35,283 bases of DNA, taken from positions 1 through 35,283 of the IMG/VR virus record IMGVR_UViG_3300032286_000132; one strand, given 5' to 3'. Under the pieces are notes generated by a model. The model had not been told where the DNA came from, ran no database searches, and saw nothing but the letters and a program-made list of their open reading frames with translations. Position 1 is the stretch's first letter; the number at the start of each line of letters is the position of its first letter. The position numbers and the translations under genes were made by a program. This document shows positions 84 to 35,283 of this stretch, piece after piece. Source of the stretch: a virus.

Positions 84-2489
84 GTTAACTGCCTCCCAAA
101 ATCCACGACTTGCTGGCTCAGTTGCAGTCAATGCCATAGCGCTTGGCATAGTATTAGACCTTGTAGGATCCATCATGCGCTCTATACCAGCCACAAAAGA
201 ACTATGAACGCCTAGTGGAGATCCACCAATGGCCAACTCAGAGCCTTGTTTAACTACCTTCTTAATCAAGTCAGCAAAGATACCAGGTGCATCCTTTTTG
301 CCTGATGTAAATACTTTCATAATGTCGCTAAACCCTTGGAGCATGGGTTGCTCTGCAAGATATTGATAGACACCTAATGCCGCGCCCATAGCAATCTTTT
401 CTGTGTCAGATCCACCAGGAGTCATCATTGTGTATTCGCCAGTAGTAGCGGCTATGCCAAGCAATGTAGCCAATGGCTCCATACCAGCATAAGACACATA
501 AACCTTATCGCCAGTACTCTTAACAGTTGTCATGCTTTCTAATTGAGCCAATGTCTCTGGGCTTACATCACCTTTATTAAAGGCTACTGAGAACTGTTGC
601 CAGCCTGTACCTTCTAGCGCTTTCTTATCTTCTATACGCATAGGGCCATAACCAGTTAGCTGGCCTTCTAATGCAAAGGATCCAGCCGCGTATACCATTG
701 AGCCACCTAATGTGACGCGAGCCAAAGCCTGGTCTCTGCGTATACCACCAGCATTGAAATCACCCCAGAATCGTGGGCTTGCAAAGTTTAAGCCTGGCGT
801 GCGAGAGATAGCCTCCAAAGCAATATTTGTAGGTGTTTTAATAAACGGCACAAACATCTTAATGATTGGGTTTTGACCGGCTCTCTGTAAGCCTTGTAAT
901 GCTGGCTCTAGTTCACGGGTAAAAGTTACTGTACGGGATACGCTCTTGGCCGCATCGTCAATGTCTGCGGTTGGATTTGATAGCAACTCTGATACTAGGT
1001 CAGCAGATTGTCTAGATGCATCATCTGGCGCAATGCCATGTTGAACAAGGTTCTTGTACATCGTATCGCCCTCGCGTACTGCAAGAGCGTTTAATTCCAT
1101 GCGATATCCAACGGCTTTAAAGAACTCATCTTCTGCCATCAATGCACGGCCAGGGAGGGTAACGAATTTACCCCAATAACGCAACGCATTACCAGTTGCT
1201 TTGCCTACCTCTGAGTCTCCAAAGTCAATATCAAACGCCTCGCGCCCGGCACGACCAGCCTCAATCTTTGAAAATGGATCTGTCGGAGCATTCTTAACAA
1301 ATGCAGTACCAGCAATATCTGCACCTTCACGAATACCCTGTAGGAATCCTACTGCCTGGGCATATACCTCGTTTGTAGAGATAGCTTGTTCGCCACCCTT
1401 AAACATAAAGTTACGAGCATTACCAATGGCTGATGCAACTGCACGCTCTGGGATCTGATACGCACCAAAGAATAAGTTACCAGCAATATTCTTAGCGTGT
1501 GTAACAGGGCTAGACAATAGGCCATTAATCCATGTGCTATACCAGATGTCTTTGACAGTACCGCTGATAGTCTTTTCTGACAGGGTTGCACGGGCGCTAC
1601 GGGAATCAAGAGCGGTGTACTTATTAGCCAGGTCATGCACAGAGTCAATGCCACCAGACTCAGTCAAGATACCATCTAGCATTGCGCCGCGAGCAGTAGT
1701 TGACTCACGGGCTTGGGCAAAGATACCAAGGGTACGAGCAATATCTGCTTGACGGCCGCGAGCCGCTTTAAGTAATACACCCTCTAGCGCTACTGCCTGT
1801 TGGAAACTAGCCGCCAATTCTGGTGTCAGTTCACCGGCATTCTTTGCCGCTTTAACTTGTTCGCCTAAATCAAATGCACGCTTGCCAGCATCAGTAATAG
1901 CTAGGAGCATCTTGTATGCATTGCCAGCATTGGCCTCTGTGATCTGAGTAGGATCTACTAAACGAGCCAAGAAAGCCTCGTCATATCCCTCATTAATTGC
2001 TTTGGCCGCAATCTCTTTGTAGCTAACTTTCTCTAGCTTGTCAGCGCCATAGGTTCTAGCAGTTGCCTCTATAAATTGCTTAACGCCATCCTCATCCTTA
2101 ATCATGTCTAAATTGAATGATGTCTCTGGAACCCCAGCCCTAACCTCAGCAGTAGATAGTGAGGGTTTACCCGTAGTAGGCATCAATGGTGCGGTCTCTA
2201 GTACTGTCTGAGCAGTCTCTGGTGTGGCATCTTTAATAACCTGATATGGGCCTACTTTGCCTGTGTCAGTACCGCTGGGTAGGATAGGTCTTTCTGTGCG
2301 CTTAGGAGCCTTTTTAACGGCCTCCCTGAGCATTGATGTAAAGCCAGCTACTTGTGTTGGCTCAAACTCTAAAGGCTGGTCTGTTAATGTGGTTGGTTCA
2401 GTTTGCTCAGTACCAACTGGCAACTCTGCCACAGTCTTGTCTGCACCAGACAAATCATCTAAGCGCTCGGTTAGCGGTTTCATTGCCAT
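1..2489 (-). CDS. Large internal virion / DNA-ejection protein (N-terminal 830 residues; continues across the genome junction)
   Basis: The reading frame starts at ATG 2489, which overlaps the stop of the upstream 59-aa gene as TAATG. It stays open to position 1 and continues at 35200 down to a TAG at 34810, giving 2,880 nt or 959 aa in all. It is the last and largest of the internal virion proteins, in the place of T7 gp16. Residues 1-120 are Pro/Thr-rich and look disordered. From about residue 300 the protein is mostly helical. The segment near 315-345 (WYSTWINGLLSSPVTHAKN) and LPGRALMAEDEFFKAVGYR near 445 resemble large phage polyvalent and core proteins. No lysozyme or transglycosylase motif was recognised. 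The expected role is in the ejected inner core that helps carry DNA across the envelope. The family role follows from position and size; the detail is inference. Confidence 0.85.
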   Translation of the reverse strand, partial: MAMKPLTERLDDLSGADKTVAELPVGTEQTEPTTLTDQPLEFEPTQVAGFTSMLREAVKKAPKRTERPILPSGTDTGKVGPYQVIKDATPETAQTVLETAPLMPTTGKPSLSTAEVRAGVPETSFNLDMIKDEDGVKQFIEATARTYGADKLEKVSYKEIAAKAINEGYDEAFLARLVDPTQITEANAGNAYKMLLAITDAGKRAFDLGEQVKAAKNAGELTPELAASFQQAVALEGVLLKAARGRQADIARTLGIFAQARESTTARGAMLDGILTESGGIDSVHDLANKYTALDSRSARATLSEKTISGTVKDIWYSTWINGLLSSPVTHAKNIAGNLFFGAYQIPERAVASAIGNARNFMFKGGEQAISTNEVYAQAVGFLQGIREGADIAGTAFVKNAPTDPFSKIEAGRAGREAFDIDFGDSEVGKATGNALRYWGKFVTLPGRALMAEDEFFKAVGYRMELNALAVREGDTMYKNLVQHGIAPDDASRQSADLVSELLSNPTADIDDAAKSVSRTVTFTRELEPALQGLQRAGQNPIIKMFVPFIKTPTNIALEAISRTPGLNFASPRFWGDFNAGGIRRDQALARVTLGGSMVYAAGSFALEGQLTGYGPMRIEDKKALEGTGWQQFSVAFNKGDVSPETLAQLESMTTVKSTGDKVYVSYAGMEPLATLLGIAATTGEYTMMTPGGSDTEKIAMGAALGVYQYLAEQPMLQGFSDIMKVFTSGKKDAPGIFADLIKKVVKQGSELAIGGSPLGVHSSFVAGIERMMDPTRSNTMPSAMALTATEPASRGFWEAVNYYKSRNPLTSDDLPRQLDPITGEQMKV

Positions 2490-2668
2490 TATCCGAGTCC
2501 TTTATTTGTTGCAAATAAATTAGCAACATTGATTGGCTGGCCTTGTGCGGCTCTATTTTCACCGGCATCCCACCAATCGGTAAATGTCAACCCATCTTGC
2601 ATATACTCTTCTGCTCGTGGGAACTGTTGAAGAAAATCTTCTTCTTTGAGCTTGATATCAGTAATCAT
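2489..2668 (-). CDS. Small protein between internal virion genes (59 aa)
   Basis: This frame runs from ATG 2668 to TAA 2489. It is threaded between its neighbours: its ATG overlaps the TGA of the 700-aa gene (ATGA), and its TAA overlaps the ATG of the 959-aa gene (TAATG). The product begins MITDIKLKEEDF, has an acidic middle with a DWWDAGEN segment, and has no membrane segment. I do not recognise it. Its context, coupled on both sides to internal virion genes, suggests a small virion or assembly factor. The precise double overlap makes it a likely real gene. Confidence 0.7.
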   Translation of the reverse strand: MITDIKLKEEDFLQQFPRAEEYMQDGLTFTDWWDAGENRAAQGQPINVANLFATNKGLG

Positions 2669-4767
2669 CTCTTTGCCTTTTCTGTAATTTGCTCACCAGT
2701 TTCTATTGCTGGTGGAGTAGTTTTACCATCCGTTTTTAGCATGATAACCTCTCTTCTCTGGCGTGGGATACTTACCTGAGTTCCTAGCTTTGGATCATAT
2801 TGCACAAAGAATCCATTGGAATCTTGAGCGGCCATAGACTCTTTACGGGTCATAGCCTTGTTCTTGAGTCCAACAATCACGCCATTAGATCCTTTTGGTT
2901 GGGCATCCATTGGCCTAAAGTCATAAGCATCACCATCAATAACCTGGTAAGTTTTGCCTGTAGCCTCATCAAATACAGACTCTGGTAAACCTTTCTTACT
3001 ACTAAATGCCATTGCCACATTCTGGCCATCATCAAGCCATTGACGCATTTGAGTCCAATTGGCGTGTGGATTATCCACATCTACTGTCAATCCATTTTGG
3101 CCAGCTTTTTGCGACAGGCCTGTAGAACTGTAGGTGTAATGATGATTTGGAGCAACTGGACGATACTTCATCTTTGTGTAATCGTAGAAGAGTACATCTG
3201 GGTTTGCCTCAATAATTGACTTATGTACCTTTGGATCAATGTCAGAAAGTACATTAAGACGAATAGCTAAAGCATTGCCATTCTTTTCTGCTATCTTTTT
3301 CAATGAAAATATTTCTTCATTAAGTTTGATTGCAAATGCCTCTGGTTCACGGAACATCGCCTGAGTCATTCTAAAGCTACGCAGACGGGTTCCCTTCATA
3401 GCATCTAAGTCTGCTCCACCACCATAGGCAAAGTAACCGCCAGAAGTTTTACCAAGGCATTCTTGAGCGCAACTTGCAGAGTTCGGGCAAGTGCTAAATT
3501 TTTCAGCTTTGAATGCTGGTGATATAGCCAGGCCAGCGCTTTCAATATTGCGCCCATCTGGTAACTCAATAGGTACGCCACCCTCAACACCAGTTTCAGT
3601 CTTAAGCAATTTGCCATTAGTAGTCAGTAAGCGTTTAACTTTTCCATCAACGCCAGTTCCAAGAATTGGTGCTAATCGTTGATTTGCTAAAGCGGCCGCA
3701 TTCTTGACATCTTCCTGGTCAAGTGTTTTGATCCAGTTCATTGCATCATCAAATGATTTTGTAAAGCGCTGAGTTGATGGCTCAAATGGAAACGGCTGGG
3801 CAATTAAATCTTTAAATGCCTGGTCAGAATATACTTGTCCTTTTGGAACATTCTCAGATACATATTGCTTTAATTCTTTTTGTTGAATTCCAGTTAACTT
3901 AGTGCCTGTTTGCTTTTCAACTGCTTGAATCATTTTGGTTGCTGACATACTTGATGCAATACCATCCGCAACAATCTTCTGCACTACTGGCAAACTCTTT
4001 GGATCAATCTTAGTTAAAGCAATTGGCTGGGCTACAACTGGTGCGCTTGTTGGAGCGTCTCCAACTATCTTCATGCTCAAACCAACTGGCATACCTTTTG
4101 TAGATTTTATTGCTTTTATTAATAATTTTGTTCCTTGTACTGCCGCCTCCGGAACGCCAGGGGCTGGTAAAAATTCACCAACCATTTGGCCATACTGAGC
4201 CATTCCCTGTCTTTCTGCTTGATTAGGGGCGTTAACGGGAACAACAGGAGACAATGCTGGAACATTAATATTTGTACCAGGTAATCTAAATCCTTCCATA
4301 CTAACTTGCTCAGTTGTTGGCAAAGTTGTTGGCTGAGACATTCCTTCTAAGAATGCACTTATTCTTGATGTATTGTTTGGGTTAATAAAAGCATTTTTTA
4401 ATCCAGTAAAAATACTTTCCACATCTCCACCAATACCCATTACTTGAGAAGTTGCTCCTCGCGCCGAGCCAGCCAACATATCAGCAAGAGCCATTAATGG
4501 CTTATCTAATCCACCAGCTTTTGCTGATTGCTCTAATGTTAATCCACCACGCCCAACTCTAACTTGAGATGGTTCTGGTTGTTTAGTAAGGCCTGGAGTT
4601 TCTGGCATAACATCTGTTACAACTGGAGGTTCTGTATATCCAGTAACAGTTACTTGACCTGTACGCTCACGCTTAGGGCCAGCCGCAAGCAATGTATCTT
4701 GAGTTGGTGGAGTAACTTGAATAATATCGTCTGCCGCCAAATCATTCATGAATCGTTGGTCAATCAT
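2665..4767 (-). CDS. Internal virion protein with C-terminal gp88-like domain (700 aa)
   Basis: The gene lies between two other internal virion genes, two bases after the 539-aa gene, and is coupled to the 59-aa gene by ATGA. Residues 1-250 are Pro/Thr/Val-rich and probably extended. Residues 250-365 look helical. From about 380 to 665 the sequence resembles the phage and plasmid 'gene product 88' family. It has a Cys cluster C427, C433 and C437 (STCPNSASCAQEC), then AIRLNVLSDID (501-511), then VLFYDYTKMKYRP (525-537). The three clustered cysteines could bind a metal or Fe-S cluster. The family match is from memory of its motifs, and no biochemical function is established that I know of. Its place in the order suggests an ejected virion protein carrying an enzyme-like domain. 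Confidence 0.75.
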   Translation of the reverse strand: MIDQRFMNDLAADDIIQVTPPTQDTLLAAGPKRERTGQVTVTGYTEPPVVTDVMPETPGLTKQPEPSQVRVGRGGLTLEQSAKAGGLDKPLMALADMLAGSARGATSQVMGIGGDVESIFTGLKNAFINPNNTSRISAFLEGMSQPTTLPTTEQVSMEGFRLPGTNINVPALSPVVPVNAPNQAERQGMAQYGQMVGEFLPAPGVPEAAVQGTKLLIKAIKSTKGMPVGLSMKIVGDAPTSAPVVAQPIALTKIDPKSLPVVQKIVADGIASSMSATKMIQAVEKQTGTKLTGIQQKELKQYVSENVPKGQVYSDQAFKDLIAQPFPFEPSTQRFTKSFDDAMNWIKTLDQEDVKNAAALANQRLAPILGTGVDGKVKRLLTTNGKLLKTETGVEGGVPIELPDGRNIESAGLAISPAFKAEKFSTCPNSASCAQECLGKTSGGYFAYGGGADLDAMKGTRLRSFRMTQAMFREPEAFAIKLNEEIFSLKKIAEKNGNALAIRLNVLSDIDPKVHKSIIEANPDVLFYDYTKMKYRPVAPNHHYTYSSTGLSQKAGQNGLTVDVDNPHANWTQMRQWLDDGQNVAMAFSSKKGLPESVFDEATGKTYQVIDGDAYDFRPMDAQPKGSNGVIVGLKNKAMTRKESMAAQDSNGFFVQYDPKLGTQVSIPRQRREVIMLKTDGKTTPPAIETGEQITEKAKR

Positions 4768-4768
4768 C

Positions 4769-6388
4769 TTATTTACCTTTTTGTATTCTCAGTATTGACT
4801 TGCGCTCTTCAGAGTTAAATCCATAACGCTTTAAATCATCATCGGTATAGGTCTTTGATGGATCATAATTAATTCCTTTGACATCAAAATACTTTGTCTT
4901 AACTCTATCTTGAGAATCTCTAGTATCTTTGATTTGCAATTGAACTTGTTTATCGCTAATCAATTCGTTGGCAACTGACATAGGATCAAATGGCTCACCA
5001 TTGTTTCTTGCCTCCATTTGACGGGTAAACAATTTAGCTTTGATATCAGCAACAGTTTGTTTTTCCATTCCAAAGCCAGGCGCAGTCATATCAGGAACGC
5101 CCAATTTATTTTGAATAAATTGAGTTGCTCTGCTCATCTCAGGATTATCCTGGCGTACATTTTTCTTAAGTACATTTGCTTGTTTCCAAGAGATGATTTT
5201 GTTTTTAGCTAGATTATCAAAGTAATCCTCGCCAACCTTTTGACGATCTGCTAATGACTCTAGCTGACCCATCAACTCCTGATTACCACCGCCAACATCT
5301 CCAGTAACCATAGCCTTGCGCTCTTCTGCGCTGATGTCAACGCCAAGACCCTTAAGCCTATTTAATCCATTTTGAGCGCTAATCTTTCCTGTCCATACTT
5401 GCTCTCGGATATCCATTGATTCATCGTAGTTCTTTTCTGTTGCGGCATCGCGTGAGCGTTTCCACATGACGGCCTCTTCACCTAGGCGGTCAACATAGGC
5501 TTTACGCAACTTGTCTTTATCAATAGTTTTAACTAATTCATTAAGGTTGCCAAAGTCACCAGCATTAATACGCTTAATACCATCAGATGGTTTGGTAGCA
5601 AAGTCAGTAGTAGTTGTGTAATCAACAACTGCATTCAATACGCGCTTTTCAAAAGCATCCATTGTTTGTTTAACAAACTCATAGTTGCCAGTTGCTTTAG
5701 CAACTTCATATACTCTACTGCGCTCTACTTTGACGCGTTGCAACAACATAGCTGGATCTTTTTCAGCTTTAAATGTATCAGCAATAATTGTGGCTGATGG
5801 AGCAATAGAGTCTCCAGCAAGAGCAATCTGTCCTTCGCCATAAATCTTTGCATAATTCTCTGTAGCTTTTACATATACTGCGTTGGCGGCAGTAGCTATA
5901 GAACTTCTAAATTTAAGACCTTCCTCAGCATCAATAGATCCAAGAGCCTTGGCATAACCAGCAGTCATTGACTTAATGGTTGTCTGTACCTCCTCAAGAC
6001 TAAAAGATCCAGACTCAACCGCGGCGCTTAACATGGCCAACTCTTGACGGCCTTTAACTTCTAACTCATTACGCAATTGTCCAGCTTGGATCTTGCGTGC
6101 GGCATCACCAAAGTATGTACCAGGTTTAGCAAATAATTCAGCCGGGCTTTTACCCTCCTTCATTGCAGTCATTACTTGTTCTGCGCTTGGCTGGTTTTCT
6201 GCTCCGTATTGCATACCCTGACGCTGGGCATACTCAGCGGCATTCTTAAAAGCAAAGTCAGCCAGCCTATCTAACTGTGCGCCAATCACTTGCTTTTGTG
6301 TAATGCTTTCTTTTATGTTGGCATAATCCATGCGCGGAACTTCTGCTGGCAGATATCCTGTTGGTTGGTACATTTGAAGTTCAGCCAT
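4769..6388 (-). CDS. Internal virion protein, gp15-like position (539 aa)
   Basis: This is a long, soluble, predominantly helical protein (MAELQMYQPTGYLP..., ending SILRIQKGK). Many Ala/Lys/Glu/Gln segments and few aromatics fit a core protein of podoviral virions. No enzymatic motif or membrane segment was seen. It lies 8 nt downstream of the gp14-like gene and 1 nt before the 700-aa gene, in the order gp14-gp15-gp16 of T7-type phages. The assignment rests on position, size and composition rather than on sequence recognition. Confidence 0.7.
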   Translation of the reverse strand: MAELQMYQPTGYLPAEVPRMDYANIKESITQKQVIGAQLDRLADFAFKNAAEYAQRQGMQYGAENQPSAEQVMTAMKEGKSPAELFAKPGTYFGDAARKIQAGQLRNELEVKGRQELAMLSAAVESGSFSLEEVQTTIKSMTAGYAKALGSIDAEEGLKFRSSIATAANAVYVKATENYAKIYGEGQIALAGDSIAPSATIIADTFKAEKDPAMLLQRVKVERSRVYEVAKATGNYEFVKQTMDAFEKRVLNAVVDYTTTTDFATKPSDGIKRINAGDFGNLNELVKTIDKDKLRKAYVDRLGEEAVMWKRSRDAATEKNYDESMDIREQVWTGKISAQNGLNRLKGLGVDISAEERKAMVTGDVGGGNQELMGQLESLADRQKVGEDYFDNLAKNKIISWKQANVLKKNVRQDNPEMSRATQFIQNKLGVPDMTAPGFGMEKQTVADIKAKLFTRQMEARNNGEPFDPMSVANELISDKQVQLQIKDTRDSQDRVKTKYFDVKGINYDPSKTYTDDDLKRYGFNSEERKSILRIQKGK

Positions 6389-6396
6389 GATTTAAC

Positions 6397-6990
6397 CTAT
6401 GCTGGAGTAGAAAAATCATAAACTGGCGCTGGTTTACTTGGCGCGCCACCTAGCTTTGAACCCATGGCAAACGCTTGGCCAACTTTGCCAATAGCCTCAT
6501 ATGTACCAGTTTTTTCAGCAGTTGATCCAGCTTGCTCATAGAGAGATGCTTGTATCAGACCGCCTCTGCGTGTCATGTCAGCATTATCTAAAGCAAACAT
6601 AAACTCTTTACCACCGCGAGTCTGTGTAATCTGTTGAACTAACCCAGCAGAACCTTCAAATCCTTGTGTGCCACCAGCGTAACCACGAGCAACAGTACTA
6701 GCTAATGCACTATTTGTGCGTTGCAATATTTGATTAGCTTGCAATTCATATTGGACTGCTCTGCGACCAGACTCAATCTCAGCCTGTTTTGCTTGCATCT
6801 CATACATTTTCTTTTTATCTTGGCCAGCCTCATATGATCCATATGCACTAACTAACATTAAGCTAATAGCAATAGTTGCGCTTACTGGCTCTTGATATTT
6901 TTGACCAGTAAGTTTACTAGCCGCTGGGCCACCCATTGGATCGCCAATTGGGCCATCAAAGTTTTTAATATCTTGTCTTGAGAATCTCAT
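6397..6990 (-). CDS. Internal virion protein, gp14-like (197 aa)
   Basis: The protein has a single hydrophobic stretch near residues 38-54 (ATIAISLMLVSAYGSYEAG). A long Gln/Ala/Glu helix (DKKKMYEMQAKQAEIESGR onward) and a Gly/Ala-rich tail follow. This layout of an N-terminal hydrophobic segment plus an amphipathic helix is typical of small podoviral internal proteins placed directly after the tail tubular genes. T7 gp14, which forms an outer-membrane channel during ejection, is the known analogue. The gene starts 2 nt after the stop of tail tubular protein B. Confidence 0.7.
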   Translation of the reverse strand: MRFSRQDIKNFDGPIGDPMGGPAASKLTGQKYQEPVSATIAISLMLVSAYGSYEAGQDKKKMYEMQAKQAEIESGRRAVQYELQANQILQRTNSALASTVARGYAGGTQGFEGSAGLVQQITQTRGGKEFMFALDNADMTRRGGLIQASLYEQAGSTAEKTGTYEAIGKVGQAFAMGSKLGGAPSKPAPVYDFSTPA

Positions 6991-12101: not shown

Positions 12102-14228
12102 TTAGAATGTGTACCATTGAGTTGTTGTAGTGGCTACAAACTCAATAGTTGAGCCAGCCGTTAAAGTATATGCTGAATTAGCCGATAAAGCATTAATCGT
12201 ACCGCCTGTTGCTGGGTAAATACTTAAAGTATCAGCGCTATCTGAGTTTCTAACTAAAATACGCATTCCAGCTACCGCAGTTGGTAGCCTTACTCCTGTT
12301 GCTCCTGTAGCAACTACAGTCACATTATTGATATTTGAAACTAAAGCAGTAGCACCGCCTTGTGTAGTACCAGCCGCACTTATAGCCGCACTAATACTGT
12401 TTACCACTAAACCACTTAATGTAGTTGTGCTAGTTGCTCCTGATACCGCAGAACCAATATTAATAGCAGTAGTAGAGCCTGATAGTCCAGCAGTACCAAT
12501 ATTAATTGCTTTAGTAGAACCTGATGCAGTTGCACCAGCTTGAATATTAGTTGTTTGGTTTCCTGTAGATTGCCCTACAGTTATAGTTCCTGTTCCACTT
12601 GTGCCACCAGCAGTCCATGTTCCTGATGTTAGTGAACTACCTATAGCAATGTTGCCAGTAGTTGTAGACGCAGTAAATGACGAAGAAACAGTCGTTGTTG
12701 ATAATGATGCCGTACCACCAGCAGTCAGATTGCCTTGAACAGTTAAAGTTCCATCTACATAAGCATTAGACTGTACTGCTAAGTTACCTTGTACTCTAGC
12801 GTTGCTAGTTGTATTAAATACATCGGTTACTGCACTAATAGAGTTTGTTTCGGTGTTGTATTGATAAACTGTGTCATTAGCTGAGCCAACCAAATAAACA
12901 CGATTGCTGGCAGTAGAATCAATAAATAAACCTGTAGGGCTAGTTTCTTGGAAGCCAATATACAAGTTATTTACAAAAACTGCGGTGCTGACATTCCAAG
13001 CAGTTCCTAACAAATATTCGTTAATATCATCGCCAGTTGTTCCCATAACCCACATTTTTGTACCATCAGCACTTAGGTTTACTTGTTGTGCATTTGTTTC
13101 TTGTGTTGATACACTAAACGAAATACTTGCATAAGAAGCAGTAGAAACATCCCAAGCAGTACCTAAAGTGTATTGAAATACTGCATCAGCAGTTGTTCCA
13201 ATAGCATACATTACTGTTCCATCAGTTTTAAACCAAAGACCAGTTGGTGTTGCTTCTTGACTTGTTACGCTAAAAGATTTAGATGCGTAGGAAGCAGTAG
13301 AAATATCCCAAGCAACAGATAATGTGTATTGATATACAGTATCGTTAGTACCGCCCATAACAAACATGGTTAAACCATCAGGTTTAAAAAAGACATCCTG
13401 TGGTGAATTATCTTGTGCCGCAGTAGAAAATACTCTGACATAAGTTGCAGTTGAAACATCCCACGCAGTTGATAGTGTGTATTGGTTTACATCATCGCCA
13501 GTAGCACCGTTAACATACAGATTTAAACCATCAGGACTAAAAAATAATCCGTTTGGAGTTGCTTCTTCAGCCGTAATAGACTTACTTAATCCTGAGTAAT
13601 TCCAGCCAGCAATGCTTGTGGTTGTTCCAAAGCCAGTAATATCACTAGCGTCTAATGTATCCCAAGATAATGTTGTGCCATTAGTTTTTAAATATTTTCC
13701 TGGATTGGCTGATTGCAAATTGTATGCGTCAACCAAAGCAATTAATTCTTTTTGACGATCTGTTAGTTTGTCATCTCTACCGCCACCGCCGCCACCGCTA
13801 GTAGGCATAACGATCCACTCACCCCAAATACCTGGCTCTTTTTCAAAGCGTAACATAAGACCTTTTTTCTCATGCTTTGGCATTGGGCCAATAGGGCCTT
13901 GCACCCCATCAATACCTTTTACTCCGGTAAAACCACGCTCTCCGCGGTCTCCTTTAGCGCCATCTTTCCCAGGGTTACCTTGGTCTCCTTTATCACCCTG
14001 TTGACCAATATCACCTTTATCGCCTTTATCACCTTTAGGGCCAGTAATAGATTTGCCTGGAATACCTTGGGGGCCTATAGGGCCACGCTCACCCTGATCG
14101 CCTTTATTTGGCTGAACAATAATTTCTCCAGCATCACCTTTTTCCCCTTTTTCTCCACGCTGGGCTTTAGCTTTTTGAGCAATCTCTAGTGCTCTAGTAG
14201 CAAGCGCTCTTGCGACTTCATCACGCAT
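12102..14228 (-). CDS. Collagen-like, repeat-containing fibre protein (708 aa)
   Basis: Residues 1-23 are a short helix. Residues 24-114 are almost continuous Gly-X-Y triplets, many of them GDK or GER, which should form a collagen-type triple helix. Residues 118-142 form a compact segment, followed by a six-Gly linker (145-150). Residues 215-470 hold about five repeats of ~48 residues with the pattern TPxGLxFxxDGxxMYVxGxTxDxVxQYTLxTAWDVSTA, like beta-propeller blades. Residues 470-708 are Thr/Ser/Ala/Gly-rich fibre sequence with repeated TAINIGSA-type units. The start overlaps the portal stop by 8 nt. The location between portal and scaffold, far from the tail fibres, suggests a head fibre or other surface fibre. 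Confidence 0.88.
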   Translation of the reverse strand: MRDEVARALATRALEIAQKAKAQRGEKGEKGDAGEIIVQPNKGDQGERGPIGPQGIPGKSITGPKGDKGDKGDIGQQGDKGDQGNPGKDGAKGDRGERGFTGVKGIDGVQGPIGPMPKHEKKGLMLRFEKEPGIWGEWIVMPTSGGGGGGRDDKLTDRQKELIALVDAYNLQSANPGKYLKTNGTTLSWDTLDASDITGFGTTTSIAGWNYSGLSKSITAEEATPNGLFFSPDGLNLYVNGATGDDVNQYTLSTAWDVSTATYVRVFSTAAQDNSPQDVFFKPDGLTMFVMGGTNDTVYQYTLSVAWDISTASYASKSFSVTSQEATPTGLWFKTDGTVMYAIGTTADAVFQYTLGTAWDVSTASYASISFSVSTQETNAQQVNLSADGTKMWVMGTTGDDINEYLLGTAWNVSTAVFVNNLYIGFQETSPTGLFIDSTASNRVYLVGSANDTVYQYNTETNSISAVTDVFNTTSNARVQGNLAVQSNAYVDGTLTVQGNLTAGGTASLSTTTVSSSFTASTTTGNIAIGSSLTSGTWTAGGTSGTGTITVGQSTGNQTTNIQAGATASGSTKAINIGTAGLSGSTTAINIGSAVSGATSTTTLSGLVVNSISAAISAAGTTQGGATALVSNINNVTVVATGATGVRLPTAVAGMRILVRNSDSADTLSIYPATGGTINALSANSAYTLTAGSTIEFVATTTTQWYTF

Positions 14229-25553: not shown

Positions 25554-25772
25554 ATGAGTAACCAAGAAATCAAGATGTTAGGTTGTACAGAAGAGGCGCT
25601 AACAAAACACTTTAGCGCTCAATACAATATCAATATGTATGTCGCTGGCTTATTGTCAGACGCACAAGAGTTGATTGCAATGGGTAGAACCGAGCAAGCC
25701 AACCAAATTATCAATCAAGTTAAGTTTTACTTTTTTGAGCATACAGACACACGCAATGAGGTGACAGTATGA
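25554..25772 (+). CDS. Small early protein (72 aa)
   Basis: The product (MSNQEIKMLGCTEEALTKHF, ending HTDTRNEVTV) is helical and mildly acidic, with no recognised domain. I start at ATG 25554, which has AGGAG nine nt upstream. An earlier in-frame ATG would lie before the promoter and is rejected. It is first in the rightward early operon and overlaps the recombinase gene as ATGA. A regulatory or anti-host role is common for such a position but unproven. Confidence 0.75.
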   Translation: MSNQEIKMLGCTEEALTKHFSAQYNINMYVAGLLSDAQELIAMGRTEQANQIINQVKFYFFEHTDTRNEVTV

Positions 25773-26428
25773 GTTTTGTTGCCTACTATCGCGTATCAAC
25801 TCAGCGTCAAGGTCAATCAGGCCTTGGCCTTGAGTCCCAGCAATCAGCAGTAACACAGTACTGCGCTGGCAAAGAACTCATTGCGGAGTTCACAGAGATT
25901 GAGTCAGGCCGTAAGACTGACCGCCCACAACTCTTAGCCGCTTTGGCTTTAGCTAAAAAGAACAAGGCCACCTTAGTCATTGCAAAGCTAGATCGCTTGG
26001 CTCGTAATGTTCACTTCATATCTGGCTTGCTTGAGTCTGGCGTGCAGTTCATTGCAGTTGATATGCCAGAGGCTGACCGCACATTCCTACAGATGGCCGC
26101 AGTATTCGCTGAGTGGGAGGCGCGCAAAATATCTGAGCGTACTAAGAGCGCTCTACAGGCCGCTAAAGTTCGCGGTACTGTCTTGGGTAGCCCAAGGCCA
26201 GAAGTCGGCTCTAAAGCTGGTGTAGAGGTCAAGCAAGCCAAGGCCAATGCGTTTGCATTCAGAGTTGCACCATCACTACAAAGTATCCTCGCTCAAGTTG
26301 GTTCCAACTTGCGTGATGTGGCCGCAGAGCTGCAGTTACGCGGCATCAAGACCGCCAGGGGCAATGAGACCTGGCACCCAGCCCAAGTAGCACAACTTAT
26401 CAGGAGAGTTAACTATGCAGTCGCTTAA
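25769..26428 (+). CDS. Small serine recombinase (resolvase/invertase family, 219 aa)
   Basis: The N-terminal catalytic domain shows YYRVS with S10 as nucleophile and R8, then DRLARN with R76 and R79. ERTKSALQAAK forms the long E-helix. The C-terminal 50 residues (SNLRDVAAELQLRGIKTARG and WHPAQVAQLIRR) form a DNA-binding helix-turn-helix. It has no large integrase C-terminal domain, so it resembles resolvases. It may resolve genome multimers, invert or integrate DNA, or regulate. It is the only site-specific recombinase seen. Confidence 0.9.
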   Translation: MSFVAYYRVSTQRQGQSGLGLESQQSAVTQYCAGKELIAEFTEIESGRKTDRPQLLAALALAKKNKATLVIAKLDRLARNVHFISGLLESGVQFIAVDMPEADRTFLQMAAVFAEWEARKISERTKSALQAAKVRGTVLGSPRPEVGSKAGVEVKQAKANAFAFRVAPSLQSILAQVGSNLRDVAAELQLRGIKTARGNETWHPAQVAQLIRRVNYAVA

Positions 26429-26997: not shown

Positions 26998-27164
26998 TGG
27001 ACTATTCGGAATACTTATTACGCATCGACAGACTCATGCGACTAACGCACCAGGCCGCACAAGCCAACAACAACGAGGCCGCAAGTGATATGGCCGCTGA
27101 AGTAGCGCGTTATGCCATCAGCCTGGCCGCTTACTTTGAATCAAAAACAGAAACGGAGATTTGA
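26994..27164 (+). CDS. Small helical early protein (56 aa)
   Basis: The frame (MMDYSEYLLRIDRLMRLTHQ, then a long Ala-rich amphipathic helix, ending KTETEI) overlaps the winged-helix stop as ATGA. It has a very good SD (GAGGAGG). It ends one nt before the exonuclease ATG. It is a pure helical hairpin with no recognised family and could be a dimeric partner of a recombination protein. Confidence 0.7.
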   Translation: MMDYSEYLLRIDRLMRLTHQAAQANNNEAASDMAAEVARYAISLAAYFESKTETEI

Positions 27165-27165
27165 T

Positions 27166-28125
27166 ATGGTAGGAAAAGTCACACCAAACGATATGCTCTC
27201 AGCCAGCCGCTTACCGGCGGTCTGCGGTATGAGCGTGTATCGATCACCTAACGATGAGTTGCTCTCATCAATTGATAGTATCAATGGTATATCACCGCCT
27301 GATATATCAAACGAGGCTATGGGATGGGGTAATAAGATGGAGCCGACCATCTTGCTGGAGGCCGCAAACAGGCTGAATTGCAAGGATCTAGAGATCGATT
27401 ACCATACGCCATTCTTTCACGATAAATGGCCTCTGAGTTGTTCTCTTGATGGCACCGCGTATGGCAAAGGCCAGGTCATTGTCAGCGATCCAGACAATGG
27501 CATCTATGTGGTTGGTAAGGATTCGATCACGCTTGATGGTATGGGCGTGCTGGAGGCCAAGCTAACCTCAATGCCAGCGGAGGATGTATTACCTCTGTAT
27601 CGTGGGCCTATACAGTTGCAAGCCCAGATGTCAATTATGAAAGCTGGATGGGGCGCGGTATGTACGCTTTACCAGGGAACACAGTTGCGGATCTTTTTAT
27701 TTGAGCCACATCTACCTACTTTGCGACTTATTGAGGAGACATCTAAAAAATTCCAGGACAAGATAGATCGGTATAAGAATACAGGCGAGATTGATTACTA
27801 TCCACCGATTAATCCAAAGGATGCGACCAGAACTTGGGCAAGTGGCTCAGATGATGAGCCTGTAGTACTTGATACTTATGCTGAAGAGTTGACCAAGTTA
27901 CTTATAGAAAACAAGTTAAAAATTACAAAAGCAGAAGAGGAAAACTCCAAGATTCAAACAGAGATTATGGGAATGCTTAAGAACCGCACTAGCGGCATTG
28001 CTGGTGAGTATCGGATCTCATGGCCTACCCGTACATATAAAGCCCAGCCAGCAAAGATTACGCCAGCAAAAGAGGCTTACACCATTCGTCAATCAACACT
28101 CTCAATAAAGGAATTAACAAAATGA
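27166..28125 (+). CDS. YqaJ-type exonuclease (PD-(D/E)XK, 319 aa)
   Basis: Motifs in order: GWGNKMEP with E59; SLDGTA with D95; GVLEAKL with E130 and K132; IQLQAQ with Q150-Q154. This is the YqaJ / lambda-exonuclease type nuclease core. The C-terminal part (LTKLLIENKLKITKAEEE) is a coiled coil. ATG 27166 has GGAG 8 nt upstream; the open frame upstream to 27112 is rejected. It is coupled to RecT by ATGA. It resects double-strand ends so that RecT can anneal the exposed strand. Confidence 0.92.
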   Translation: MVGKVTPNDMLSASRLPAVCGMSVYRSPNDELLSSIDSINGISPPDISNEAMGWGNKMEPTILLEAANRLNCKDLEIDYHTPFFHDKWPLSCSLDGTAYGKGQVIVSDPDNGIYVVGKDSITLDGMGVLEAKLTSMPAEDVLPLYRGPIQLQAQMSIMKAGWGAVCTLYQGTQLRIFLFEPHLPTLRLIEETSKKFQDKIDRYKNTGEIDYYPPINPKDATRTWASGSDDEPVVLDTYAEELTKLLIENKLKITKAEEENSKIQTEIMGMLKNRTSGIAGEYRISWPTRTYKAQPAKITPAKEAYTIRQSTLSIKELTK

Positions 28126-29105
28126 GTTTAGTAAAACACCAGGGGTTTGCCCCACAAACAATGACCGAGGCTATCGAGTTTAGCAATATGCTTTCTAGAT
28201 CCCAGATGGTTCCAAAGAATTATCAGAACAAACCAGAGGATGTCCTTGTGGCCGTCCAATGGGGTTATGAGATCGGTCTGGCACCGCTCCAGGCATTGCA
28301 GAATATCTCTGTAATCAATGGCAAACCATCGGTATATGGTGACGCGGCAATGGCATTAGTCCAGGCCAGCCCAGTTTGCGAGGATGTGCAAGAGAGCATT
28401 GAGGGTGATGGCACTAGTAATCCTGTGGCTATCTGCCGGGTTAAGCGCAAAGGCCGCTCTGAGGTGGTGTCTAAGTACTCTGTAGAGGATGCCAAGCGCG
28501 CTGGTCTGTGGGGTAAGCAAGGGCCTTGGTCTCAATACCCCAAGAGAATGCTCCAGATGCGTGCCAGAGGCTTTGCTTTGAGAGATGCGTTCCCTGATGT
28601 CCTTAAAGGTTTAATCACCGCTGAGGAGGCTCAGGATATGCCTGTGGATGAGGTAATTAATAAGCCAATAAAGATTGCATCTAACAATCCATTGGATGCC
28701 ATTGTTTCTAGCCCATTGTTGTCAATTTCAGAGCCAGAAGTTTTGGATATACCAGCTGATAAGTGTCTCCAAAATACAACAGTTGAAGAGATGCCTGTGC
28801 CACCAATGGAGGATGCTCCGCTACCCGTAGTCTCAAATGATTTGCCAAAGCCTGGCACATTCATGCTAAATATCCCCGGTAAAGATGCCATTGCCTGTGA
28901 GGGTATTGAGTCTTGGATGGAGTCTTATAACGATATGGCTGATAAGGTTGCCAGGTCTAAGTTGTCCAAAGAGGTTAAGGCCAGCAAGATAGGTGAGTTT
29001 AATACTTTGAATGCTGATGTCTTAGGGTTGTTGAGTGCAGTTCAAAAGGCTGGTATGACTGCACATAAGCAAAAGCGTAAGACTATGTTGGACGCATCTA
29101 GCTAA
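28122..29105 (+). CDS. recT: RecT-family single-strand annealing protein (327 aa)
   Basis: The core region VAVQWGYEIGLAPLQALQNI, then INGKPSVYGDAAMALV, then WSQYPKRMLQMRARGFALRD, is typical of RecT/Bet-type annealing proteins. The C-terminal 130 residues are less conserved and acidic or Pro-rich, then a Lys-rich tail (KQKRKTMLDASS). It follows the exonuclease by ATGA and ends the rightward operon. It overlaps the convergent lysozyme by 8 nt, with no terminator seen between. The pair drives recombination and repair of phage DNA. Confidence 0.94.
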   Translation: MSLVKHQGFAPQTMTEAIEFSNMLSRSQMVPKNYQNKPEDVLVAVQWGYEIGLAPLQALQNISVINGKPSVYGDAAMALVQASPVCEDVQESIEGDGTSNPVAICRVKRKGRSEVVSKYSVEDAKRAGLWGKQGPWSQYPKRMLQMRARGFALRDAFPDVLKGLITAEEAQDMPVDEVINKPIKIASNNPLDAIVSSPLLSISEPEVLDIPADKCLQNTTVEEMPVPPMEDAPLPVVSNDLPKPGTFMLNIPGKDAIACEGIESWMESYNDMADKVARSKLSKEVKASKIGEFNTLNADVLGLLSAVQKAGMTAHKQKRKTMLDASS

Positions 29106-31392: not shown

Positions 31393-33741
31393 TTACCTCG
31401 CTAAAGCGTTTTTAAAAGGGTTTTCGGCAAATGCCATGTAGATGTAAGTGCCGCTTGATGTGTTTAAATCACTATCAGTTCCACGAATTTTAAAACCATT
31501 AGATAGAATATCAATATCTCTACCACTTGTAGAATCGTCTGCGTTTGATAAATTTGGAAATAATCCAAGATTGGCGGAATTGTATGAATTTCTTGCTGTA
31601 TCTCGAATAGTCCAATTTGCAATTGTATCGGCGCGTTTTACCAGCACAAACTTTGGTCTAAATCCTGTATAAATAAACGGACCATCACTAGAACCATTGC
31701 CTGTATAGCTACCAAACTTACTAAAGCCAGCTATTTCTGACCAGCAGTAGGCTACATAAGTTACACCGTTATCGTTATAGTCACTAAAAGATTGTTGCAA
31801 AGTAAATGTTGTTGAACTTACACCCCAAGTAGGTGTTGCAGTAGCGGATGCGGAAGTGGAATTTAAATACAAATATTGGTTTATGCCTGTAGATGTGTGG
31901 TAAGTAATCCAATTTCCTGTGCTACTTCTTTTCTTAACAATAATTATTGCTGGAGCAACACCTAACCCATGACCTACAGTAGCACCAGTTGAACCATTGC
32001 CTGTATATGTTGCAATACTAAATCCAGCAGAAGCATTAACGCTTACTGTTGATGTAATAGAACCATTGGTATTAGATGATGTAGTGCCTTGACCAGCTTG
32101 CCATTGCCAGCCTACAAAAGTATCGCCAGTATTAGCCGAATTTGAATTTACAGTATAGGTAAATCCGTTACTATTAAATGATGATATTCGTTGGTCAGTT
32201 GCTTCAGCGTTTGTTAAATTAGAAAATAATGTAGAAGAACCACCAGTAACAGAATTTAACAATTCATGGTTTCTTGCAACAGATCTACATTTCATCCAAA
32301 CAAAATCAGGTTTAAATCCAGCAGTATTCACAACAGAAGCACCACTAGAATTTCCAGTAAAGGTAGTAGCATCCATTACTGTATTACCTTTAACAATAGT
32401 GCTAGTAGGTAAGTTATAAGTATTGAGTGCTACAAATCCTGTTGGTGGGGTGTAAGCGAATGGTCTTTGACCAAAGTTAAATGCAACATTTGACCAAATT
32501 CCTGAAAATGTAGTTGTCAATGTTGGTGTAATTGGTTCGCCTATTGGCAATGTTGTATCTGTATGGACAAGAGTATTATTAAGATAGTATTTAATTTCAC
32601 CAGCGTCACAATCAACAGATATACCAATAGTATTTCCAATTGCTATTGGAGTTTTAGTAGCTGTAGATGTAGCAGTAAAATTCTTAGTATAAGCATCATA
32701 ATGACCATACCAAGAAATTCCTGATGAAGAATATTGAGAATAAGAAGTAATACTTGTATTTGAAACACCGCAATATGCTGGCAATGTTCCTGATACATGA
32801 GTACATTCCCAATACCATTTTCCTTTAGAAACAAAAAATGTTCCTTTTACAAGAGCATAATCAGTAGACGGAACATATAAATTTGCTTGTTGTGGAACTG
32901 GTGATGTAAAAGAATTGAGAGGATTCAACACACAATAGTTAGCCGTTGTTGCACTTGTCAATGTAGGTACATCAGTCATTGAATCGTAAGTAGTGCCAGC
33001 AGTTAAGCTAATGTTGTTAGATGTCCAGTTATTGCTATTGCCGCTAAAGTCATAACCAATAGTGGTTGTGCTTGTAGTGTTTGTAAATGGCAAATAGAAG
33101 CCATTAGTGCCGTAAGTTCCTGTGTATTTAGCTGGTTGCCATACACCAGTTAATGCGTTTGTAGAACCAAAAGAAGATGGGGTTAGGGCTTGACCATCAA
33201 TGAAGTTTACTTCTGTTAAGTAGCCGTCAAAATATTGAGTAAGTCCACCAGCGTTTAAAACTCCTAAATATAAAGAAGATGAATTATTTGTAATGCTTGA
33301 TGCACTAGAGCTTGGATATGCTGTAGAGCTAAATGCTGTTACTTGAACACCATTAACATACATTTTCATTCTATTAGTTGATGTCGCATTTGTAGAGTCC
33401 CAAACACAAACAATATGATACCAAGCTGACGGGTCTCTGAATACTTGCGTAGTGGTTAATCTTCCAACAACAGAACCGCCATTAAATTCAAGCCAATCAA
33501 TAGTATCAGCCGCAAAACATATTGGAGTACCATAAGTAGTGCTTCCTGTGCCGCCACTAAAAACTCGTTGTGTGCCACCTAATGAACCTCTTTTTACCCA
33601 AGCACTAATAGTCCAAGTGGTTAATGAACCAGCCCCAGCAGGAGTGCGATTCAAATAAGCAGAAGCACTACTTCTAAACCTTAAAGATTTAGTTAAGTTA
33701 TAGCCATCATCTCCAGTAAGGAGTAGATTCTGATTAAGCAT
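31393..33741 (-). CDS. Large fibre protein, LamG- and SPRY-like domains (782 aa)
   Basis: Residues about 20-190 form a LamG-like sandwich (LTTWTISAWVKRGS; WYHIVCVWDST; MKMYVNGVQV; FDGYLTEVNFIDG). Residues about 270-430 look like SPRY/B30.2 (GKWYWECTHVSG; GNTIGISVDCDAGEIKYYLN; VAFNFGQRPF). Residues about 430-782 hold two copies of a beta-sandwich with the pattern TGNGSxG...GFxPxFVxxK and a late FVGWQWQAG / YIYMAFAENPF strand. Such chains of lectin-like domains are receptor-binding fibres in aquatic phages. It starts at the last base of the T7-like fibre gene. It likely binds host glycans. Confidence 0.85.
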   Translation of the reverse strand: MLNQNLLLTGDDGYNLTKSLRFRSSASAYLNRTPAGAGSLTTWTISAWVKRGSLGGTQRVFSGGTGSTTYGTPICFAADTIDWLEFNGGSVVGRLTTTQVFRDPSAWYHIVCVWDSTNATSTNRMKMYVNGVQVTAFSSTAYPSSSASSITNNSSSLYLGVLNAGGLTQYFDGYLTEVNFIDGQALTPSSFGSTNALTGVWQPAKYTGTYGTNGFYLPFTNTTSTTTIGYDFSGNSNNWTSNNISLTAGTTYDSMTDVPTLTSATTANYCVLNPLNSFTSPVPQQANLYVPSTDYALVKGTFFVSKGKWYWECTHVSGTLPAYCGVSNTSITSYSQYSSSGISWYGHYDAYTKNFTATSTATKTPIAIGNTIGISVDCDAGEIKYYLNNTLVHTDTTLPIGEPITPTLTTTFSGIWSNVAFNFGQRPFAYTPPTGFVALNTYNLPTSTIVKGNTVMDATTFTGNSSGASVVNTAGFKPDFVWMKCRSVARNHELLNSVTGGSSTLFSNLTNAEATDQRISSFNSNGFTYTVNSNSANTGDTFVGWQWQAGQGTTSSNTNGSITSTVSVNASAGFSIATYTGNGSTGATVGHGLGVAPAIIIVKKRSSTGNWITYHTSTGINQYLYLNSTSASATATPTWGVSSTTFTLQQSFSDYNDNGVTYVAYCWSEIAGFSKFGSYTGNGSSDGPFIYTGFRPKFVLVKRADTIANWTIRDTARNSYNSANLGLFPNLSNADDSTSGRDIDILSNGFKIRGTDSDLNTSSGTYIYMAFAENPFKNALAR

Positions 33742-34809: not shown

Positions 34810-35283
34810 CTATCTTTTATATTTGCCGTATTCACGGCGTGACTCTTGTACTTCTCGCAATGCATCTGCCAAATCTGGATCTTCCATAATCAATTGATTC
34901 TTAGCCTGGGAATATGTCTCAGATATCTCTTTAGCAATAACGGCCTGAGCCATACCTAAGTCTTTAGCCGCAGTACTGTATAGGTTTTTACCTAAAGCAA
35001 CAATGCCCTTTTCTAAGCGGCCATCGCCAGTTGCCAACTCAATCCAGCGGTTGTACTGAGATGCGCTGAGTTCAACGCCATCAACAGATTTGTCTGGTAC
35101 ATACATTGGCACGCCATACTCTACTAATGTTGCATGGGCTGGAGAGAACTTACCCTCTGAAGTTTTAAATGGACTGACAAATTCGTATAGGTTGCCCTTA
35201 CCAACCTTCATCTGCTCACCAGTAATAGGATCTAACTGGCGTGGTAAGTCATCTGATGTCAATGGATTACGGGATTTGTAGTA
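34810..35283 (-). CDS. C-terminal part of the 959-aa internal virion protein
   Basis: The frame is open to the right edge and ends at TAG 34810. When 35200 is joined to 1 it is in frame with the gene at 1-2489: 2,489 plus 391 nt equals exactly 960 codons. The segment (FVSPFKTSEGKFSPAHATL; LVEYGVPMYVPDKSVDG; ending VQESRREYGKYKR) is helical and charged. The internal ATG near 35262 is not the true start. Confidence 0.95.
   Translation of the reverse strand, partial: YYKSRNPLTSDDLPRQLDPITGEQMKVGKGNLYEFVSPFKTSEGKFSPAHATLVEYGVPMYVPDKSVDGVELSASQYNRWIELATGDGRLEKGIVALGKNLYSTAAKDLGMAQAVIAKEISETYSQAKNQLIMEDPDLADALREVQESRREYGKYKR
35201..35283. repeat. Right copy of 83-bp terminal direct repeat
   Basis: Identical to 1-83; see the left copy. 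Removing one copy leaves 35,200 unique bases and restores the 959-aa gene. Confidence 0.97.

Follow-up and report, generated by a model that had tools for sequence, protein, structure and literature searches.

Several classes of phage proteins are predicted or proven to reach the host from the virion. Polyvalent proteins of phages and conjugative elements, which mix effector domains, are predicted to be injected (Iyer et al. 2017, PMC5512222). In temperate phages, MuF polymorphic toxins have a virion-associated constant N terminus, occur also as short forms without an extension, carry variable C termini that include ADP-ribosyltransferases (ART), and are accompanied by a small downstream ORF (Jamet et al. 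2017, PMC5576092). For T4 Alt, a head-packaged ADP-ribosyltransferase, delivery has been proven experimentally (PMC5512222, PMC9503650). The GP88 family (PF17338, PHROG 1617), the subject of this work, is widespread but uncharacterised. In the literature searched, we found neither an enzymatic assay nor a target or phenotype for any of its members, and "gp88" does not occur in the main text of Iyer et al. 2017 (PMC5512222). GP88 fusions as such are already known to databases, since a public structure set contains fused models named "Gene product 88 domain-containing protein". Here, we describe a GP88 domain in a protein whose general kind is known from polyvalent proteins and MuF toxins, but which by strict features is neither. 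Both the slot, predicted to hold exchangeable effectors on a T7-like ejection protein, and the place of GP88 in it appear to be new.

The window, i.e. the whole 35,283-nt stretch that was analyzed, is IMG/VR record IMGVR_UViG_3300032286_000132. It ends in an exact 83-bp terminal repeat (1-83 are identical to 35201-35283), which joins across the window ends the two halves of a gp16-like gene, both on the minus strand: the N-terminal 829 aa at 1-2489 and the C-terminal part at 34810-35283, the last 83 bases of which are the first 83 of the window. Because of this junction, the contig looks like a complete or nearly complete circular-type genome of about 35.2 kb. The initial annotation had pointed to a 700-aa ORF at 2665-4767 embedded among ejection proteins. 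The ORF is real, but it is encoded on the minus strand, and a plus-strand reading was ruled out by its many stops. We refer to this gene, which encodes an ejection-type protein with a C-terminal GP88 cargo and has counterparts at the same gene position in 67 related loci, as the carrier. The embedding was borne out as well. Upstream lie, all on the minus strand, a gp14-like gene (6397-6990) matching phrog_418 ("internal virion protein") at 3.5e-8 and a 539-aa ejection gene in the gp15 position (4769-6388), which served as the anchor of our comparisons, while the gp16-like gene follows downstream. For this last gene, relatives have hits to phrog_6651 ("internal virion protein") and to gene 16 of P-SSP7. 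By gene neighbourhood, the carrier thus lies in a T7-like internal-core operon, where it differs from the gp14, gp15 and gp16 core by being an extra gene with a variable cargo, inserted between the gp15-position and gp16-like genes. An assembly artefact was ruled out by the presence of the same architecture in many independent samples.

The likeness to gp88, originally proposed from three short motifs, was confirmed by profile searches. The carrier matches Pfam GP88 over residues 411-642 (E 4.7e-18, 66.3 bits against a cut-off of 24.4) and PHROG 1617 at 1e-32, whereas NCBIfam yielded no match for the protein. All three quoted motifs are present: CPNSASCAQEC at residues 427-437, AIRLNVLSDID at 501-511 and LFYDYTK at 526-532. 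As modeled by AF2, the GP88 domain spans residues 400-665 (2773-3570, minus strand; pLDDT 87, pTM 0.85) and consists of alternating strands and helices forming about six beta/alpha units in a TIM-barrel-like arrangement. Foldseek against viral models returned GP88 proteins as the named top matches (E 4e-35 to 6e-13), and most of the significant viral matches that bear a name are GP88 proteins. Against the PDB, the domain model gave no significant match, the insignificant ones being dominated by TIM barrels; sequence searches of the PDB found no relative for the protein and only chance matches for the profile.

The carrier displays all hallmarks of the family, i.e. three conserved cysteines and the RLN-SD, YDYTK and GD-D-R motifs. 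The cysteines C427, C433 and C437, the only ones in the whole carrier, are located in the three-cysteine motif (3457-3489, minus strand), in the loop that follows the domain's first strand, and are identical in every aligned relative that covers them (71-72). The RLNVLSD motif (residues 503-509; 3241-3261, minus strand) contributes R503, N505, S508 and D509, identical in 73 of 73, and S547, G612 and D616 are also invariant among aligned relatives. Relatives were fetched with a pattern, YDYTK, taken from the FYDYTK motif (residues 527-532; 3172-3189, minus strand), so the conservation of F527-K532 is partly built in, whereas that of the cysteines is independent of this selection. In all but the most distant comparison, dN of the GP88 cargo is 0.005-0.05 against a dS of 0.3 to over 2. 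As judged from this dN/dS of about 0.02, the cargo is under strong purifying selection, and together with the invariant C, R, N, S, D, Y, T and K residues it suggests a putative active site.

What chemistry such a site might perform was considered next to the original proposal of a metal or Fe-S enzyme. A three-cysteine site could bind a metal, and radical-SAM enzymes hold their cluster in a loop after the first strand, the very place of the three invariant cysteines here. A radical-SAM-like enzyme related to DUF5131 (Gp37/Gp68, PF07505) would be compatible with the explanation that we favor below. In the best GP88-DUF5131 profile alignment, the Cys, RLN-SD, DYTK, HLTyS and VIVG motifs are paired collinearly, and some radical-SAM or Fe-S proteins turn up among the weak, low-ranking matches to viral models. 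However, that alignment has a P of 0.06-0.16 and scores below many of 120 block-shuffled controls, no Pfam radical-SAM match was found among 73 GP88 members, the GP88 model has no significant PDB match, and the C-x5-C-x3-C spacing departs from the classical CxxxCxxC. The comparison with radical-SAM-like folds that had been suggested for this domain, carried out with Foldseek against the PDB and by profile comparison with DUF5131, therefore revealed no significant similarity. We consider homology to DUF5131 possible but not probable; having been rejected against the shuffled controls despite its collinear motifs, it was kept as a lead.

The remainder of the carrier is modular. An N-terminal module (residues about 1-225; 4093-4767, minus strand) has a helix at residues 2-13, disorder to about residue 84 and then low-confidence helices; in some phages, it is present alone as a protein of 176-182 aa. 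It is followed by a linker and helical part (residues about 226-399; 3571-4092, minus strand) that travels with GP88, and residues about 320-399 are also found ahead of GP88 in other fused proteins. In the full-length AF2 model, residues 14-84 and 200-249 are disordered with low-confidence helices in between, and a well-packed helical segment (about 320-392) runs into GP88. A fold search with the N-terminal module was dropped, this model being too uncertain there (pTM 0.54).

Searching with the carrier itself retrieved 12 loci with GP88 and three that share only the N-terminal 220-240 residues. When loci were instead anchored on the upstream gene, the middle gene varied from 176 to 779 aa between constant neighbours, and the order gp15-position gene, carrier, gp16-like gene recurred in all informative loci. 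Among the C termini, HMMER identified ART-PolyVal (PF18760), two subtypes of DUF7178 (PF23802), a phrog_7348-like domain and GP88; the ART-PolyVal and DUF7178 cargos are confirmed by Pfam, and the phrog_7348 cargo is a polyvalent-type domain. Six states (GP88, phrog_7348-like, two DUF7178 types, ART and none) account for 61 of the 67 carriers, the other six being unknown. The sample anchored on the upstream gene comprises 11 carriers with no cargo, 10 phrog_7348-like, six GP88, six ART and five of each DUF7178 type. This tally is the only count free of GP88 selection, query-based loci inflating the GP88 share. Empty slots are of two sorts: in three close relatives, the N-terminal module stands alone, and in eight phages further removed, the slot holds just a gene of 187-214 aa. 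Similarity to the N-terminal module is undetectable in two of the 22 GP88 carriers and in eight of the 11 cargo-free ones, where position is the sole evidence. These results show that a slot among the internal-virion genes of a family of freshwater viruses of bacteria combines a constant N terminus with an exchanged C terminus, and that GP88 is one of at least five types of cargo.

Exchange is also visible at the DNA level. The nearest kin of the window, L013 and L017, carry DUF7178. Compared with L013, DNA identity is 83-96% outside and 27-62% inside about 2489-4600; with L013, L017 and L018, both flanks are mostly at 81-96%, with a drop to background from about 4600 to 2489. The reverse holds for L007 and L009, whose flanks do not rise above background but which share 69-84% identity from about 3990 to 2489, delimiting the core of an exchangeable GP88 cassette (2489-3990, minus strand). 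Unrelated cargos thus occur in phages about 90% identical in flanking DNA, and different cargos in close kin (the window against L013, L017 and L018; L097 against L007) show recent cargo replacement. On a maximum-likelihood tree of the gp15-position protein (53 rows, six cargo states), the cargo label changes at least 21 times, whereas five changes, the minimum, would suffice without exchange. A recent transfer between the window and L007 or L009 cannot be claimed, synonymous sites being saturated (dS about 2.3), and because dS is saturated for distant pairs, we date no transfer between distant lineages.

Could the C-terminal domains be non-catalytic, structural extensions of the ejection conduit? 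Ejection proteins in general vary widely in length and diverge fast, as this would predict. However, the cargo may be absent, the domains that replace it belong to unrelated, recognised families, an ADP-ribosyltransferase among them, and a dN/dS of about 0.02 with invariant residues suggests an active site, which makes this explanation very unlikely. We favor instead the view that the carrier is probably an ejected protein whose slot can hold different effectors, of which GP88 is one, acting on the host. It would be an additional ejection protein of a T7-like short-tailed phage, placed between the gp15-position and gp16-like core proteins. The constant N-terminal module would package it in the head and let it exit with the other core proteins, and the C terminus would be an exchangeable effector slot, filled here by GP88. 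Upon infection, the carrier would be ejected and GP88, predicted to be a TIM-barrel-like enzyme built around a three-cysteine metal (most likely Fe-S) site, would act on the host in the first minutes, with a job in host take-over or counter-defence like that of the ADP-ribosyltransferase in other phages of the family.

The GP88 cargo differs from all others in having a linked partner. From the carrier to the gp16-like gene there are 175 nt in every GP88 locus with enough sequence. With any other cargo, by contrast, this spacing shrinks to at most 2 nt or gives way to an overlap of 1-4 nt. The 175-nt gap holds most of a 59-codon ORF (MITDIKLKEEDFLQQFP...; 2489-2668, minus strand), which starts on the carrier's stop (ATGA) and also overlaps the start of the next gene. 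Its substitutions by codon position 1/2/3 number 176/116/366, a pattern from which we conclude that it is a protein gene, and its dN is lower than its dS. The partner ORF is found beside every complete GP88 carrier and with no other cargo type. In L126, L129, L133, L134 and L136, the gene for a fused GP88 is immediately followed by a weaker homologue of the partner (E 2e-6 to 8e-3), and a search over all loci found none further elsewhere.

A small linked gene raises the question of whether GP88 is a growth-inhibiting polymorphic toxin against which the 59-aa ORF confers immunity, in which case the pair would cripple the host or competing phages with no reprogramming of the host. The carrier shares with MuF toxins the constant N terminus (in which Pfam finds no MuF domain), the cargo-free forms, the variable C terminus and the small downstream ORF (PMC5576092), and the pairing of GP88 with a downstream partner extends to unrelated lineages (the five loci named above). 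Yet the carrier is located in an ejection-core operon, and the small ORF comes only with GP88: the ART, DUF7178 and phrog_7348 cargos have no partner, their stop overlapping or abutting the next start. Stand-alone GP88 loci outside the fused group have no partner-like ORF either. Moreover, MuF toxins are reported only from temperate phages, and the genome contigs searched contain no relatives of the gp15-position gene (none among 84,980 genomes in a search for prophages and hosts); the same kind of search with the fused GP88 as query returned three MAG contigs only. We therefore regard a toxin-immunity pair as unlikely. If the carrier is an effector-bearing ejection protein, the co-made partner probably silences the GP88 carrier in the producing cell, or keeps it folded or loaded there. 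A more specific version, in which a redox/radical-type Fe-S enzyme is injected with the DNA, restrained by the 59-aa partner, in a slot that it shares, over evolution, with ADP-ribosyltransferases and other effectors, is tentative, and we would not bet on all of its parts.

Beyond this slot, GP88 is present in at least 583 environmental phage contigs. The domain had been described at the outset as usually stand-alone; stand-alone GP88s do exist, but the nearest relatives form a separate, almost always fused group, and those 42-62% identical to that of the window are almost all within longer proteins. Giant polypeptides of 2,000-3,300 aa combine GP88 with ART-PolyVal and LPD38, suggesting that GP88 looks like an unlisted polyvalent-protein domain. 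Examples of about 2,600-3,300 aa, with GP88 and ART-PolyVal and sometimes LPD38, are L140:1089-9557, L143:603-8552, L145:1302-9740 and L148:963-10784. Tunturi_5, a jumbo phage of Tunturiibacter, encodes an N-terminal InPase fused to GP88 (L106:4350-5687), which is annotated as a "minor head protein" and adjoins a 1,489-aa "MutT/NUDIX hydrolase". In L133:4825-8262 and L132:2-2941, genes adjoining the fused GP88 gene contain phrog_7348-like domains (also ART-like in L133), pointing to the same effector set in another gene arrangement. ART-PolyVal and LPD38, its companions in the giant proteins, and InPase, its companion in Tunturi_5, are domains of the polyvalent proteins that Iyer et al. 2017 (PMC5512222) predict to be injected, and this company favors effector delivery. 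Among stand-alone GP88s, many are located no more than about 2 kb from a genome end (pelagiphages, roseophages, Lo5R7ANS, cluster A mycobacteriophages); others are away from the ends (HTVC023P, Sansa, XacN1, DC31). In T7-like phages, the end position usually corresponds to the first genes entering, which would fit an early action of GP88. Because stand-alone GP88s resemble ordinary intracellular phage proteins, the GP88 part might alternatively be undelivered and act late in the producing cell, its location merely providing late transcription. This is quite unlikely, since fusion to a module that is kept alone elsewhere, in the same slot with the same neighbours, indicates a structural role of the carrier, and ART-PolyVal cargo suits injected proteins.

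Delivery into the host with the DNA, as initially suggested, finds good support in the context (invariant gene order, cargo-free versions, interchange with ADP-ribosyltransferases), whereas packaging and injection themselves are predictions; we found no virion proteomics of any cargo-bearing relative. With polyvalent proteins, the carrier has in common that ART-PolyVal occurs in its family's slot, that GP88 occurs in giant ART-PolyVal/LPD38 proteins, and that it is encoded among virion genes and predicted, from that neighbourhood, to be injected. It differs in being a short T7-like ejection protein with one exchangeable domain at a fixed locus. GP88 is its only recognised effector domain, whereas polyvalent proteins have at least two disparate ones, as L140, L143 and L145 do. 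With T4 Alt it would share the logic of an enzyme delivered with the DNA for immediate action on the host, but not fold or sequence, and delivery is proven for Alt and predicted for the carrier. Within its own family, the carrier has the full domain match and all invariant residues, but its GP88 is fused to an ejection-type module. Interchange with an ADP-ribosyltransferase and a dedicated partner provide a first functional lead for GP88, and the exchangeable tail end suggests that it affects the host as soon as infection begins. The slot would amount to a naturally assembled collection of effectors that small aquatic phages use early in infection, making any uncharacterised domain found in it a candidate effector.

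The nearest cultured phage by terminase (78% identical) is Methylophilales phage MEP301, from which we infer that the host of the window virus is probably a methylophile. Its gene order is that of the window, with the place of the carrier held by gp25, a cargo-free protein of 161 aa that matches the N-terminal module weakly (E 0.05). With its empty slot, MEP301 is a natural comparison. Its gp16-like gene is annotated as two overlapping ORFs (gp23 and gp24; L223:532-2292 and 2237-3631), possibly owing to a frameshift or sequencing error. In the window, an Rfam scan at gathering level and a tRNA scan found nothing. A 708-aa collagen-like, fibre-type gene (12102-14228, minus strand) sits between portal and head-assembly genes, an odd spot for a fibre, and a 782-aa protein with Laminin_G_3 and DUF7483 (31393-33741, minus strand; E 7e-109) is probably tail or fibre related. 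Finally, the plus strand encodes a recombination set, consisting of a serine resolvase (25769-26428), a YqaJ exonuclease (27112-28125) and RecT (28122-29105), which could aid domain exchange or indicate a temperate lifestyle.
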